NCBI GenBank assembly: GCA_900755095.1
Contig: CAAEFE010000059.1
Location: 1 to 26,884 of the forward strand
Length of the DNA: 26,884 nt
Direction of reading: 5' to 3'
From: an uncultured Bacteroides sp.
GTDB lineage: Bacteria > Bacteroidota > Bacteroidia > Bacteroidales > Bacteroidaceae
Part shown: piece by piece, positions 1 to 22,690 of the stretch
How the letters are laid out: the number at the start of each line of letters is the position of its first letter
Position numbering within the stretch: position 1 is the stretch's first letter
Program-made: the position numbers and the translations under genes
Notes under the pieces: model-generated
The model's database searches: none
Seen by the model: the letters and a program-made list of their open reading frames with translations, nothing else
What the model was told of the DNA's origin: nothing

Positions 1-319
1 AATAACAAAAGTAAACCTATTTAGATATTAAAGTATATTGAGTAAACTAATTCAGTTATAACAAACGAAGTTGTCAACTAAAACCAGTACACATCATTCG
101 TCGGTGAGAAACTAAAGTTTCATCGGTGAGAAACTGTGGTTTCATGAGTGAGAAACTTTAGTTCCAGCAGCTTGAAACTCTAGTTTCGGCAGCTTGAAAC
201 TTTAGTTCCAAAGGCATGAGAACTCTTGTTTCATACAGTGAAACGATTGGTTCCAAAGCATGGAACTATCGGTTTCACCGTATGAAGCAGTTATCTTATA
301 AGTAAAGATGGAGTAGAGA
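1..319. other. Gene-free region left of the GH125 gene
   Basis: No credible reading frame is present. Positions 1-100 are AT-rich with nothing recognisable. Positions 101-288 hold a 22-bp-period palindromic array, listed separately. Positions 289-319 lead to the GH125 stop codon. Because the GH125 gene reads leftward, this whole stretch is its 3' flank, so the array could be transcribed as part of the 3' untranslated end of the mannan operon. Confidence 0.7.
101..288. repeat. Array 1: tandem 22-bp palindromic units
   Basis: Eight inverted repeats start at 117, 139, 161, 183, 205, 228, 250 and 272, so the period is 22 bp with one 23-bp step; a partial right half lies at 101-116. Each unit has the form GTTYC(A), a 5-8 base variable loop, then (T)GAAAC-like right arm, followed by a few bases before the next unit. 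The arms co-vary: the unit at 228-244 pairs GTTTCA with TGAAAC, and the unit at 250-266 pairs GTTCCA with TGGAAC. The gaps between units are also nearly palindromic (GAAACTAAAGTTTC at 109-122). There is no conserved long repeat or unique spacer as in CRISPR. Function is unknown. Confidence 0.9.
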
Positions 320-1765
320 CTACTGAATGCTATTCAGTAAGTCTGCCTTTCCTTCATTGACCAGTTTGAGGATCAGCTCTCCGAACAACGTATTCTGCCA
401 TGCAAACCATGCACGGGTAAAGTTTTTCGGGTCGTTTTTGTTGAATGATTCGTGTATGAAGCCGGTACCTGCATCCGTATCCATCAGCATTTTGATGCAA
501 GTTTTGATTTCTGCGTCATTCTGGCTGGTGAAGGCTTTCATCATGATACTCATGGGCCATATCATGTCATATCCGATGTGCGGACCGCCGATACCTTCTC
601 CGGCACTGCCTTTGAAGAAGTAAGGATTGTCTTCGCTCCATACAAACTTGCGGGTATTCTGATAAATCGGATCAGTCACTTTGACGTCGCCCAGATAAGG
701 CAAAGCGATGAGACTCGGCACGTTGGCATCGTCCATCAGTAGCTGATTGCCGAAGCCGTCTACCTCGAAAGCATAAATCTTACCGTATTTCGGATGGTTG
801 CAGACAGCATATTTCTTTAATGCTTTTTCTACTTCATCCGCCAGTGCGGTACATTCTTTGGCCAGCGCCGGTTTCTTGTTCACGGTGTTCAGAATTTCGG
901 CAGCTTTGCGCAAGGAAGTGACGGCGAAGAAGTTGGAAGGAACGAGGAACTGGAAAGTCGTAGCGTCATCCGAAGGGCGGAAAGCGGAAGCAATCAGTCC
1001 GACAGGTTTCACCGGATTGCCCCAGCCATCATTGGTCATGGTGTCGAGTGCGCGTTCGGTCTTACGCTGGAATCTGTACGGACCTTTCGCGTCGTCCTTA
1101 CGCTGCTGTTCCTTGAAAGTCTTCAGCACATTTGCGATGGCTTGCAGCCATTCGTCGGAGAATACGCTGGCATCGCCCGTTGTTTTCCAGTAATGGTATG
1201 CCAGGCGGATCGGGTAGCAGAGAGAGTCGATTTCCCATTTGCGTTCGTGAAGTTCCGGTTTCATGTCCGTCAGGTCGCTCATCCATTCGCCTCCTTCGGA
1301 GTTCATGTTGAAGGCGTTGGCGTACGGGTCGATATTGATACATTTAAACTGGCGGTTGATGACTCCTGCCAGCATCTTTTTCAGTTCGGGGTCTTTATTG
1401 GCAAGCTGCACATACGGCCATACCTGCGCACCGGAGTCGCGGAGCCACATGGCGTGGATGTCTCCGGTGTATACAAAAGTGTCCTCTTTTCCGTCGAAGT
1501 GAACGGTAGTGTCCAGTGTGTTCGGGAAGCAGTTCTCGAACATCCATGCCAGTTTCGCATTGGTCAGTAGTTGCTTGATGTGGTCAATCTGCCGTTCCAC
1601 TTCCTGCGATACGAATAAGCGCTTGGAGGCTTCGGGGCGGTTGGTCTGGTAATTATTGACCCGGGTATTGTCTTGCTGGGTCACAAATTCGCGGTTTTCC
1701 ATTGCTTGCACGCCGGCAGCGCCCGAAAGTGCTGCGCAGAGGCAAAGTGTTTTGGTTATATTCAT
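320..1765 (-). CDS. GH125 exo-alpha-1,6-mannosidase, periplasmic
   Basis: A 481-residue glycoside hydrolase of family 125. The family removes non-reducing-end alpha-1,6-linked mannose, here the debranched mannan backbone, by an inverting mechanism. A signal peptide (hydrophobic 5-21, cleavage near VQA-ME) with no lipobox suggests a soluble periplasmic enzyme. Family hallmarks are the TGDIHAMWLRDSGAQ block at 100-114, RPSDDATTF at 263-271, where an Asp is the likely general acid, and GFIHESFN at 435-442, where Glu439 is the likely base. The length is normal for the family. It is the last gene of the leftward set, 44 bp after the GH76 gene. The order matches BT_3781 of B. theta. The stop codon lies inside a hairpin and array 1 begins about 30 bp beyond. 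Confidence 0.93.
   Translation of the reverse strand: MNITKTLCLCAALSGAAGVQAMENREFVTQQDNTRVNNYQTNRPEASKRLFVSQEVERQIDHIKQLLTNAKLAWMFENCFPNTLDTTVHFDGKEDTFVYTGDIHAMWLRDSGAQVWPYVQLANKDPELKKMLAGVINRQFKCINIDPYANAFNMNSEGGEWMSDLTDMKPELHERKWEIDSLCYPIRLAYHYWKTTGDASVFSDEWLQAIANVLKTFKEQQRKDDAKGPYRFQRKTERALDTMTNDGWGNPVKPVGLIASAFRPSDDATTFQFLVPSNFFAVTSLRKAAEILNTVNKKPALAKECTALADEVEKALKKYAVCNHPKYGKIYAFEVDGFGNQLLMDDANVPSLIALPYLGDVKVTDPIYQNTRKFVWSEDNPYFFKGSAGEGIGGPHIGYDMIWPMSIMMKAFTSQNDAEIKTCIKMLMDTDAGTGFIHESFNKNDPKNFTRAWFAWQNTLFGELILKLVNEGKADLLNSIQ
321..339. repeat. Perfect inverted repeat overlapping the GH125 stop codon
   Basis: TACTGAAT (321-328) and ATTCAGTA (332-339) are perfect 8-base arms around a 3-base loop. 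The GH125 stop codon (320-322) overlaps the outer end of the stem, so the last five codons form the hairpin. On the leftward transcript the hairpin is not followed by a clear T-run, so an ordinary intrinsic terminator is only weakly supported; it may protect the 3' end instead. Confidence 0.55.
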
Positions 1766-1809
1766 GGTAATTGTTTTTTTAATTCATGTAAGGGTTAATA
1801 ATCAATGTT

Positions 1810-2973
1810 TTATTTCTCGATTTCAGCGAACAGCTCGATCAGGCAGGCATTATCGAGCAGCCATTTATAAGGTTCCTCGTTATGTCCCGACCAGTCTCTG
1901 CCCAGTAATCCGTTGGCATCCCGGTAGTTTCTCCATGCGTGGAGCGCGTTCTCTGCCATCGCACGGACATAAGTCGGGTTGTGGTCAATCTTCTCCAGCG
2001 CCTTGAAGCCTCTGAACAGAATCACGTTAAACCACGACATATCCTTGTGTACCTTGACTGACGGGTCTTTCTTATCTGCTTTCGAACGGAAAAAGGCATC
2101 GGTTCCCGCGGCTGTCTTCTGGGCATCGCGCAAGTAATCCTTGTCTCCTGTCTCTTCGTACAGCAATACGCCTGCCTGAATCATTTGTCCACTGTTGTAG
2201 GCGTACTTGTCTTTCGAGACTTTCCCTTTCAGGTTGATATTGTCCCAGTAAAGGAAGTCGTCGGGATCACACAAGTGTTTTCTGGTCCATGCGTAAGTTT
2301 CCTTGGCCTTGTTCAGATACTTTTTGTCCTTCGTCAGACGATATAGCTTGACGCCGAGTACTGTTGACGGGGCATTGGAGCAGGTGTGCTTCGCTTCTTT
2401 CTGCTGTTCGCACCAGAAGATTCCTCCGCCCAGTTCGTTACTCCAGCCGCTGTAGATGTATTCGTACAGGGCAATGGCCTTTTTCAGATAGTCGGCCTTC
2501 TTTGTGAGGCGGTAGTAGTCGCAATAATCCAGTGCGATCCAGATGTTGTCATCGTAGTAGCGTCCATGCTGACCGTATTTGACTGGGTACGACTGATAAC
2601 ATGCCGGAAGTCGTTCTCCGTCCCAGTACTGTTCCAGTCCCGGCAGGATGCGCTTTTCCAGTATCGTCTTGTACTTCTTGTCTCCGGTAGCCTGGTACAT
2701 GGCTACGCAACCGGACATCATCCCTGAGTAGGGCCACAGAAAGGAGGCCTTCAAGGTTCCGTTCTGCTGTGCTCCGCCCGCCAGATAAGTGATTTTCTGG
2801 TCGGGATTCACGGGATATGTTTCGGTAAGCAGCCCGTCTTCCGTCTGATATAAATTCAGAACATTGTCGAGGATAGAGTCGGCAATGGACACGAAAGGAT
2901 GATTTTCCACCGTTTTTCCGGAAGCGGAAGCGAGGCAAAACAACATACAGGCTACAAAACATATATTTCTCAT
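1810..2973 (-). CDS. GH76 endo-alpha-1,6-mannanase, periplasmic
   Basis: A 387-residue GH76 protein. The family cleaves internal alpha-1,6-mannosidic bonds of the fungal mannan backbone with retention. The catalytic consecutive Asp pair is visible as YYDDNIW, Asp141-Asp142. A Trp/Tyr-rich (alpha/alpha)6 pattern continues through [18 protein letters not shown] and [19 protein letters not shown]. The N-terminus (about 20 residues, ending SASG-KT) reads as a type I signal peptide rather than an acidic surface lipoprotein signal. This fits the periplasmic paralogue, complementing the surface GH76 at the far end of the locus. Order and size match BT_3782. It lies 34 bp after the phosphatase-like gene and 44 bp before GH125, so it is probably co-transcribed with them. 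Confidence 0.93.
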
Positions 2974-3007
2974 ATGGGTATCAGATTATTTAATGAAGTA
3001 TTCGGGG

Positions 3008-22193: not shown

Positions 22194-22370
22194 AATCGTT
22201 TGCTTTAATGATTATTAAACATATATTTTCAATTCTCTCTTATGTGTTAAGGAATCGGTTGTTGCTTTATCTAACGGCTAATTAAAGATCAAAGTGCGTG
22301 CCAAAGACTGATGTACGCTATCAATGTATTGATTATAAGTGAGATATGTGAATGATGTACATTGTCTATT

Positions 22371-22433
22371 GTGTGGAAACGCATGGGGAATGTGTGGAAA
22401 ATGGGGTGAGGAGTGTGGAATTATTCCACAATA
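22371..22433. repeat. Triple 21-bp direct repeat ending in a palindrome
   Basis: GTGTGGAA begins at 22371, 22392 and 22413, exactly 21 bp (two helical turns) apart. In the last unit it is completed as a palindrome, TGTGGAAT-T-ATTCCACA (22414-22430). The repeat lies 178-240 bp upstream of the small secreted gene. Equal phasing on one DNA face suggests a cooperative protein-binding site. Confidence 0.7.
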
Positions 22434-22574
22434 GTCTGCTTTGTTACGTAAATAATAATAAGTAATGCAAGAATGGTTATGTTTCAATGAACCTATACTT
22501 AATGAGTAAAGAACTAAAGCATCTGAAAAACGAAAAGTAATGAACTAATTATCAGATTCCTGCAAAGTCTTTTA

Positions 22575-22690
22575 TTCTCACCGCAATGAGAATAATTTCT
22601 CACTGCAATGAGAAAATTTTCTCAAAGGCATGAGAATTTTTTCTCATCGTGGTGAGAATTTTTTCTCAAAGGCATGAGAATACTTTGAGA
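22575..22690. repeat. Array 2: tandem 22-bp palindromic units
   Basis: Five units start at 22575, 22597, 22619, 22641 and 22663, exactly 22 bp apart, with a decayed sixth (TTGAGAA) from 22685. Each is TTCTCA, six variable bases, TGAGAA and four A/T-rich bases. All ten arms are perfect; only the loops (CCGCAA, CTGCAA, AAGGCA, TCGTGG, AAGGCA) and the tails vary. Period and layout equal array 1 at the other end of the window, with a different arm sequence. On the plus strand some units look like hairpins followed by T-runs. Function is unknown. Confidence 0.92.

Follow-up and report, generated by a model that had tools for sequence, protein, structure and literature searches.

Sequence-constrained arms in dispersed 22-bp-period arrays of Bacteroides: putative REP-like elements at gene ends

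What are the two short-period repeat arrays that lie 22 kb apart, one on either side of a mannan locus, in a stretch of DNA from an uncultured Bacteroides sp.? The stretch, hereafter called the window, comprises 26,884 nucleotides (contig CAAEFE010000059.1 of assembly GCA_900755095.1). A preliminary description, made from the letters alone, had taken the arrays for members of a dispersed family in which each locus evolves its own matched arms. Our analysis of related genomes showed that the arms are held by selection as sequence, while the loops and joints between them drift. We lean towards the view that the arrays are gene-end elements similar to the repetitive extragenic palindromic (REP) sequences, and that they offer phased half-sites to one or more putative oligomeric, sequence-specific DNA-binding proteins.

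The two arrays share a geometry. Tandem Repeats Finder called a period of 22 at 97-157, 152-210 and 22575-22686, and with six-base arms the plan of both arrays is an arm, a loop of six bases, the reverse complement of the arm and a joint of four bases, a word and its reverse complement thus alternating about every 11 bp. Array 1 (97..290, no strand assigned) carries half-sites of the GTTTC class at a 22-bp period, with 16 recognised arms in runs of 10 (108-209) and 6 (228-288) and one irregular unit at about 207-227. Written with five-base arms it reads GTTTC-(7/8)-GAAAC-(4/5), the spacing 7+5 replacing 8+4 in some units. Array 2 (22575..22691, likewise unstranded) belongs to the TTCTCA class and consists of five TTCTCA-N6-TGAGAA-N4 units and a terminal partial unit, TTTGAGAA. 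An arm-agnostic search for at least six arms in alternation with their reverse complements, run on the window and 80 loci (1.46 Mb), returned 10 arrays against none in one Markov control, and class-specific searches returned 8 arrays against none in reversed and none in Markov controls (2.26 Mb). Because both kinds of control gave no matches, the arrays are not a product of chance, and the shared architecture proposed at the outset is confirmed by the repeat calls and the controls. The proposed difference in arm sequence stands as GTTTC against TTCTCA, but the arms are not wholly unrelated, since both fit [G/T]T[T/C]TC. The 14-mer CAAAGGCATGAGAA common to the two arrays lies where it had been reported, at 209 in array 1 and at 22623 and 22667 in array 2. 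It contains one recurring loop word, standing beside an irregular arm (the commonest loop, AAGGCAT, makes up 12/302), and taken alone it is weak evidence.

The family was searched in related genomes, including those of B. faecis, GM023, B. bouchesdurhonensis (G004), B. faecalis (G005), Parabacteroides distasonis (G011) and Mediterranea massiliensis (G014). Four recurrent arm classes were found: GTTTC, GTGCC and TTCTCA in B. faecis and its relatives, and GTTTC, GTGCC and GTACT in P. distasonis. Genome counts are of overlapping double units rather than arrays, on the forward strand with at most 3 mismatches, and were set against a reversed-pattern control. TTCTCA was counted 16 times in B. faecis, 13 in GM023, 2 in B. 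finegoldii, 5 in G004, 2 in G005 and 0 in P. vulgatus and B. fragilis (control 0 in 7/7); in a further set of 15 genomes, two of them repeated, only G009 was positive (8), and G008 gave 0 real and 2 control matches. GTTTC matched in 13/18 genomes, with counts from 2 to 106 (B. faecis 73, GM023 106, two B. fragilis genomes 0); its control gave 0-6, and counts of 2-4 are at background level. At the level of the order, with at most 2 mismatches, 5/149 genomes were positive for GTTTC, three of them strongly: B. faecis (56), G077 (88, control 11) and G123 (60, control 1). For GTGCC, 7/18 genomes were positive (69, 27, 6, 25, 23, 7 and 26, the first two being B. faecis and GM023) and the control was 0 in 18/18. 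With the N8/N4 spacing of the original array, GTACT was counted 23 times in P. distasonis and 16 in M. massiliensis, with one weak match in G004 and 0 in 15 others (control 0 in 17/18 and 1 in G006); with N7/N5 spacing it gave one weak match each in 3/18 genomes. None of the four classes was seen in the two B. fragilis genomes.

The proposal of a dispersed family with a common period and plan and several arm sequences was therefore borne out, as arrays with the 22-bp plan recur in other genomes. The classes resemble dialects of a common geometry: the three found in Bacteroides fit [G/T]T[T/G/C][T/C]C (GTACT does not), and a GAAAC arm occurs inside some GTGCC arrays. Distinct array sets, from which identical arrays had been dropped, numbered 65 for GTTTC, 17 for GTGCC and 14 for TTCTCA; in these, same-orientation arms lie 22 bp apart in 488/595, 96/96 and 76/76 cases, respectively, the finder having permitted other spacings. 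Two single arrays, L006:19604-19688 (TTACC/GGTAA) and L015:11823-11886 (GTGCA/TGCAC), suggest further arm classes in Bacteroides-like genomes. An 800-kb sample of G004 contained a single clear array, of the GTGCC class, together with two weak chains (control 0); it was placed clear of the loci already retrieved and hence was not blind to known arrays.

The evidence for constraint comes from orthologous arrays, which were paired by their flanks (G004/G005, window/B. faecis and B. faecis/GM023). For GTTTC, 15 comparisons lay above the flank score, of which 2 were dropped for coverage and 13 kept; GTGCC gave 6 comparisons. GTTTC arrays had changed at 28/659 arm positions (4.2%), 89/424 loop positions and 70/277 joint positions (22.7% for loops and joints together) and at 416/2791 positions of the flanks, and the difference between arms and loops plus joints was highly significant (p = 8e-25). 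The corresponding values for GTGCC were 13/225 (5.8%), 36/164, 15/72 and 142/1362 (p = 7e-7), and a less filtered version of the comparison gave changes of 5.4% in arms, 23.8% in loops, 30.9% in joints and 17.7% in flanks. Both partners of each pair had been found through their arms, which biases the comparison towards conserved arms. In a neutral simulation with one rate of 0.22 everywhere and the same selection, arm change was 15.0% for GTTTC (167/3800 arrays kept) and 13.6% for GTGCC (102/1400 kept), well above the observed 4.2% and 5.8%. Because whole units might be exchanged, we also restricted the comparison to units with at most two loop changes (63/85 orthologous units), and the arms had changed at 22/630 positions against 58/474 in the loops (p = 3e-8); three of the 20 locus pairs in this unit-level test have members in common, and so not all of them are independent.

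The preliminary description held that arms are locus-specific and are matched by concerted evolution inside each array. Some likeness within arrays exists. In three genomes, loop similarity within and between arrays was 0.493 and 0.419 (0/2000 shuffles), 0.533 and 0.504 (p = 0.04), and 0.536 and 0.526 (p = 0.27), and joint similarity was 0.572 and 0.496 (p = 0.0015), 0.581 and 0.541 (p = 0.003), and 0.636 and 0.600 (p = 0.0125), so that loops are slightly more alike within arrays in two of the three genomes and joints in all three. Identical loop pairs (5/255, 7/201 and 1/190 within arrays; 44/5416, 46/3540 and 25/2813 between them) are about 2.5 times commoner per within-array pair in two genomes, although not in the third, and the B. 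faecis orthologue of array 1 contains adjacent duplicate units. However, most units of an array are unlike one another, and the arms vary by class rather than by array: they are the same over dozens of loci and several species though most loops differ, and the GAAAC arms inside GTGCC arrays also speak against locus-specific matching, which we regard as very improbable. Loops also recur between classes, with 50, 19 and 12 identical pairs against 8.6, 6.0 and 3.7 expected, while the number of distinct loop words common to two classes exceeds expectation in only 1/3 comparisons. Central pyrimidine-purine steps in loops are mildly above column expectation.

Complementary arms suggest a different kind of explanation, at the level of RNA, in which the arrays would be tandem hairpins in 3' untranslated regions that end transcription or protect transcripts, the stem being what matters. 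The arrays fold strongly on either strand, they lie mostly at gene 3' ends, and the TTCTCA module has one orientation to transcription in 5 tandem contexts and the other in 1. On the other hand, compensatory arm changes were seen 3 times in GTTTC against 9.5 expected under independence, 2 against 1.5 in GTGCC and 0 against 2.1 in TTCTCA, a total of 5 against about 13, and sense-strand mismatches of GTTTC arrays in tandem contexts comprised 40 G-U and 51 A-C; module-derived copies are not independent in either count. A frequent variant, TACTCA, breaks the arm pair without compensation, and no Rfam family matched anywhere in the window. The deficit of compensation and the absence of a G-U preference in GTTTC disfavour an RNA stem or a DNA cruciform as the selected feature and suggest that the arm is read as double-stranded DNA. 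We consequently consider the RNA-level explanation unlikely, and recognition by paired shape, as first proposed, is not supported, since the complementarity of the arms is not maintained through compensation.

The position of the arrays relative to genes was counted with one array per locus at 92 loci in four genomes (G001, G002, G004 and G005). Convergent regions held 31 arrays, '++' regions 33, '--' regions 15 and divergent regions 5; the context of 5 was undetermined and 3 lay inside called open reading frames (ORFs). For the null, 800 kb of G004 supplied 186 intergenic gaps that measured 150 bp or more, of which 33 were convergent, 48 '++', 58 '--' and 47 divergent. Arrays avoid divergent regions (5/84 versus 47/186, p = 1e-4; in G004 alone 0/26, p = 0.002) and are enriched in convergent ones (31/84 versus 33/186, p = 0.001), which agrees with the suggested relation to gene 3' ends. 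Within tandem contexts '++' exceeded '--' by 33:15 (p = 0.013); there is no obvious reason for this, contig orientation being arbitrary.

The arrays spread at least in part as larger units. The 20 stretches of GM023 include 11 arrays in which the recognised arms number exactly 10 (105-106 bp), and 13 arrays, these 11 and two shorter ones, align with one unit order and a common AT-rich left flank, indicating one module that was copied. The array 2-bearing element is about 320 bp long (22506..22827, minus strand) and, in an alignment of 328 columns, is 79% identical to a copy at another locus in B. faecis (L243:3783-4108). At the syntenic site of B. faecis the segment 22492..22843 (no strand assigned) has no counterpart, and another insert of about 171 bp is present there (L001:11577-11747). 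That insert contains three ACCTAGGT motifs, 20 and 22 bp apart, and is perhaps another array class. At the array 2 site, GM023, B. faecalis and B. bouchesdurhonensis have a compact intergenic space. Array 1, in contrast, has orthologues in B. faecis (L245) and GM023 (L222). The two arrays therefore differ in history, and although they do bracket the mannan locus, to which the preliminary description drew attention, the bracketing looks coincidental.

Such dispersal of entire modules, together with the different insert at the array 2 site in B. faecis, would also be expected if the modules were purely selfish, that is, miniature inverted-repeat transposable elements (MITEs) or minisatellites in which the arms would be sites for a transposase or for replication and the arrays would bring the host no benefit. 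In L206 and L209, two related copies from GM023, the first and last units are mutually reverse complementary (one base off in L209), resembling terminal inverted repeats, and the BrickBuilt elements of Porphyromonas gingivalis offer a precedent (PMC4596501). Nevertheless, where orthologous arrays have kept their place the arms are still constrained, and a dead copy would not show such constraint. The aligned modules showed no general terminal inverted repeat or target duplication by inspection, no systematic search for these or for an autonomous partner having been made. A purely selfish origin thus appears rather unlikely to us. In G004, several GTTTC arrays have a recurrent GGTGATAGGTGATAG...CTATCACC repeat beside them (on the right side of L118, L121 and L127), another recurrent repeat, CTTGCACAC/CTTACACAC, occurs in L115 and L132, and an identical double unit with a common flank is found in L116, L119 and L123. 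A tRNA-like sequence stands beside L123, and these loci may adjoin duplicated rRNA/tRNA regions.

In the protein-binding reading that we prefer, each arm would be a half-site read by an oligomeric DNA-binding protein with sequence specificity; alternatively, a few related proteins would share the work, with one for every arm class. Half-sites about 11 bp apart and alternating in orientation would lie along a single face of the helix, where a short strip of protein could occupy them cooperatively, loops and joints being mostly spacers; the arrays often have 10 half-sites over about 106 bp (range 6 to 19). The binding protein and its cooperativity are inferred, and there may be class-specific partners. 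New arrays would arise at least partly by copying of a whole-array module to another gene end, after which purifying selection would hold the arms and the remainder would drift. By analogy with REP sequences and bacterial interspersed mosaic elements (BIMEs), and from their position, the probable role of the arrays is to set a boundary at the 3' ends of genes, where they would hold back read-through as a roadblock or absorb supercoiling.

Several observations weigh against this interpretation. Neither an array-binding protein nor a linked protein family was identified. Loops and joints change faster than the flanks, and units with at least 4 loop differences number 12 against a binomial expectation of about 6.5; this excess of much-changed loops implies that some unit exchange occurs, which could add to the contrast between arms and loops. 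Loop words recur within classes 211, 35 and 18 times against column-shuffled expectations of 19, 6.4 and 5.0, an excess that comes partly from related copies and implies that loops are more than random spacer sequence. Orthologous arrays show no more than a mild reduction in gaps, with 41 in 1360 aligned bases of array against 127 in 2791 of flank for GTTTC and 5/461 against 19/1362 for GTGCC, and part of the regularity of spacing comes from the selection of loci with 22-bp patterns. The context counts rest on gene calls by a simple longest-ORF script and on a null from one genome. Finally, G-U exceeded A-C mismatches by 8 to 5 in GTGCC and by 3 to 0 in TTCTCA, and the TTCTCA module hints at an orientation relative to transcription (assigned by eye for 12/14 arrays), with 4 versus 2 in the GM023 module; the combined 9:3 is not significant, but some transcript-level role is conceivable.

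A broader view, which we put forward tentatively, is that Bacteroides and some relatives possess a gene-end marking system. Paralogous putative binders would polymerise along 11-bp-phased arrays at the ends of dozens of genes, reading the half-site dialects GTTTCA, GTGCCA, TTCTCA and GTACTT (the last in Parabacteroides and Mediterranea), and would insulate transcription units or organise the nucleoid, mobile modules spreading the boundaries. If true, this would mean that a model gut genus contains a large layer of sequence-constrained intergenic sites, with several coexisting half-site dialects and a putative reader protein for which exact bait sequences are available. It predicts that some genomes may be without the reader, B. 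fragilis showing none of the four classes, and it would bear on how transcript ends, insertion libraries and nucleoid maps are read.

In the window itself, both arrays lie 3' of leftward genes, as had been described. Array 1 lies about 30 bp beyond the stop codon of a GH125 alpha-mannosidase gene whose 3' end it borders (320..1765, minus strand; PF06824, E 1.4e-182). The array 2 element borders the 3' end of a sulfatase gene (22864..24420, minus strand; PF00884; 96% identity to B. faecis), with array 2 about 175 bp beyond the stop; this identity and the gene set fit B. thetaiotaomicron. A small leftward ORF on the other side, of 89 amino acids without a Pfam match (21924..22193, minus strand, ORF call), has array 2 about 380 bp upstream, which places the array in a tandem gene context. 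In BLAST searches against phages, array 1 matched a faecal scaffold of 4.7 kb that has no annotation and is labelled 'Bacteriophage sp.' (E 3e-7), as well as 26 Synechococcus phages (E about 0.9). The scaffold, MT838931, has a GTTTC array at L244:1436-1529 and may be mislabelled Bacteroides DNA. Against plasmids, array 1 matched 7 B. finegoldii records and 1 P. distasonis record, and array 2 one B. finegoldii and one Citrobacter record (E 0.4). Of 6 matching stretches in viral contigs, two are simple GAAACCCC-type repeats and three or four resemble short arrays.

How do these arrays compare with known systems? The GTTTCA arm is part of the parS half-site, and repeats spaced by 11 bp recall partition (ParR) sites. 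However, the 16-bp parS palindrome has no spacer, while the half-sites here are split by N6 and are present at dozens of loci. When 1 mismatch at most was allowed, a parS-like motif was present only once or twice per genome in 9/9 genomes (control 1 in B. faecis). As P. vulgatus and B. fragilis, both array-poor, are among these, the motif seems to be a feature in its own right; parS/ParB was therefore rejected. We also rejected clustered regularly interspaced short palindromic repeats (CRISPR), as loops recur across loci and conservation is confined to the short arms; no search for cas genes was made. The literature searched, outside which most subscription papers lie, contained no description of these Bacteroides arrays. 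A study of the B. theta transcriptome reports that CRISPR is lacking and describes PM2, a promoter motif that is nearly palindromic and has its elements at -10 and -30 (PMC7366714). In the accessible passages, a report on the candidate reader, the CRP-like BT4338, prints no motif that is comparable with the arms (PMC6989115), and a paper on small RNAs does not mention these arrays (PMC11697453).

The array-rich genomes also allow a comparison with REP elements that are moved and recognised by a Y1 (TnpA-REP) transposase, the REP-associated tyrosine transposase (RAYT). Many short palindromic intergenic repeats per genome, located at gene 3' ends, would suit this explanation, and Y1_Tnp is present in three array-rich genomes (1 match in G002, 4 in G010 and 1 in G123). 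Yet Y1_Tnp (PF01797) was unmatched in 15/20 genomes, including the array-rich B. faecis, G003, G004, G005, G009, G011, G014 and G077, and the pairing of arms is not kept by compensation, so we consider a RAYT-type mechanism highly unlikely.

P. gingivalis, the host of BrickBuilt, belongs like Bacteroides to the order Bacteroidales. BrickBuilt, a minisatellite/MITE, is the closest system: in the accessible portions of its descriptions (PMC4596501; also PMC5771137), it resembles the arrays here in having tandem repeats of similar period, multiple dispersed copies that are always intergenic, and a short non-coding module with 'leader' and 'tail' flanks. It differs in its 23-nt unit, with the consensus AGAYCATARTATCCTCTCRTRTG, in which no matched N6/N4 arms are visible when it is compared by reading with our period of 22, and in its ISPg-like terminal inverted repeats, with 19 copies of one kind in ATCC 33277 (PMC4596501). 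The GM023 and array 2 modules have conserved flanks. Unlike BrickBuilt, the arrays here have alternating arms, four arm classes, and arms that are constrained after insertion.

In enterobacteria, REP and BIME sequences are numerous short palindromic repeats that alternate in orientation at gene 3' ends and in convergent regions, with proposed effects through protein binding, supercoiling or read-through. The arrays described here differ from them in their 22-bp half-site pairs, in the presence of several arm classes per genome, in the lack of compensatory pairing and in the lack of a RAYT in most array-rich genomes tested, but they resemble them in their placement at gene 3' ends and in convergent regions (divergent 5/84, convergent 31/84).

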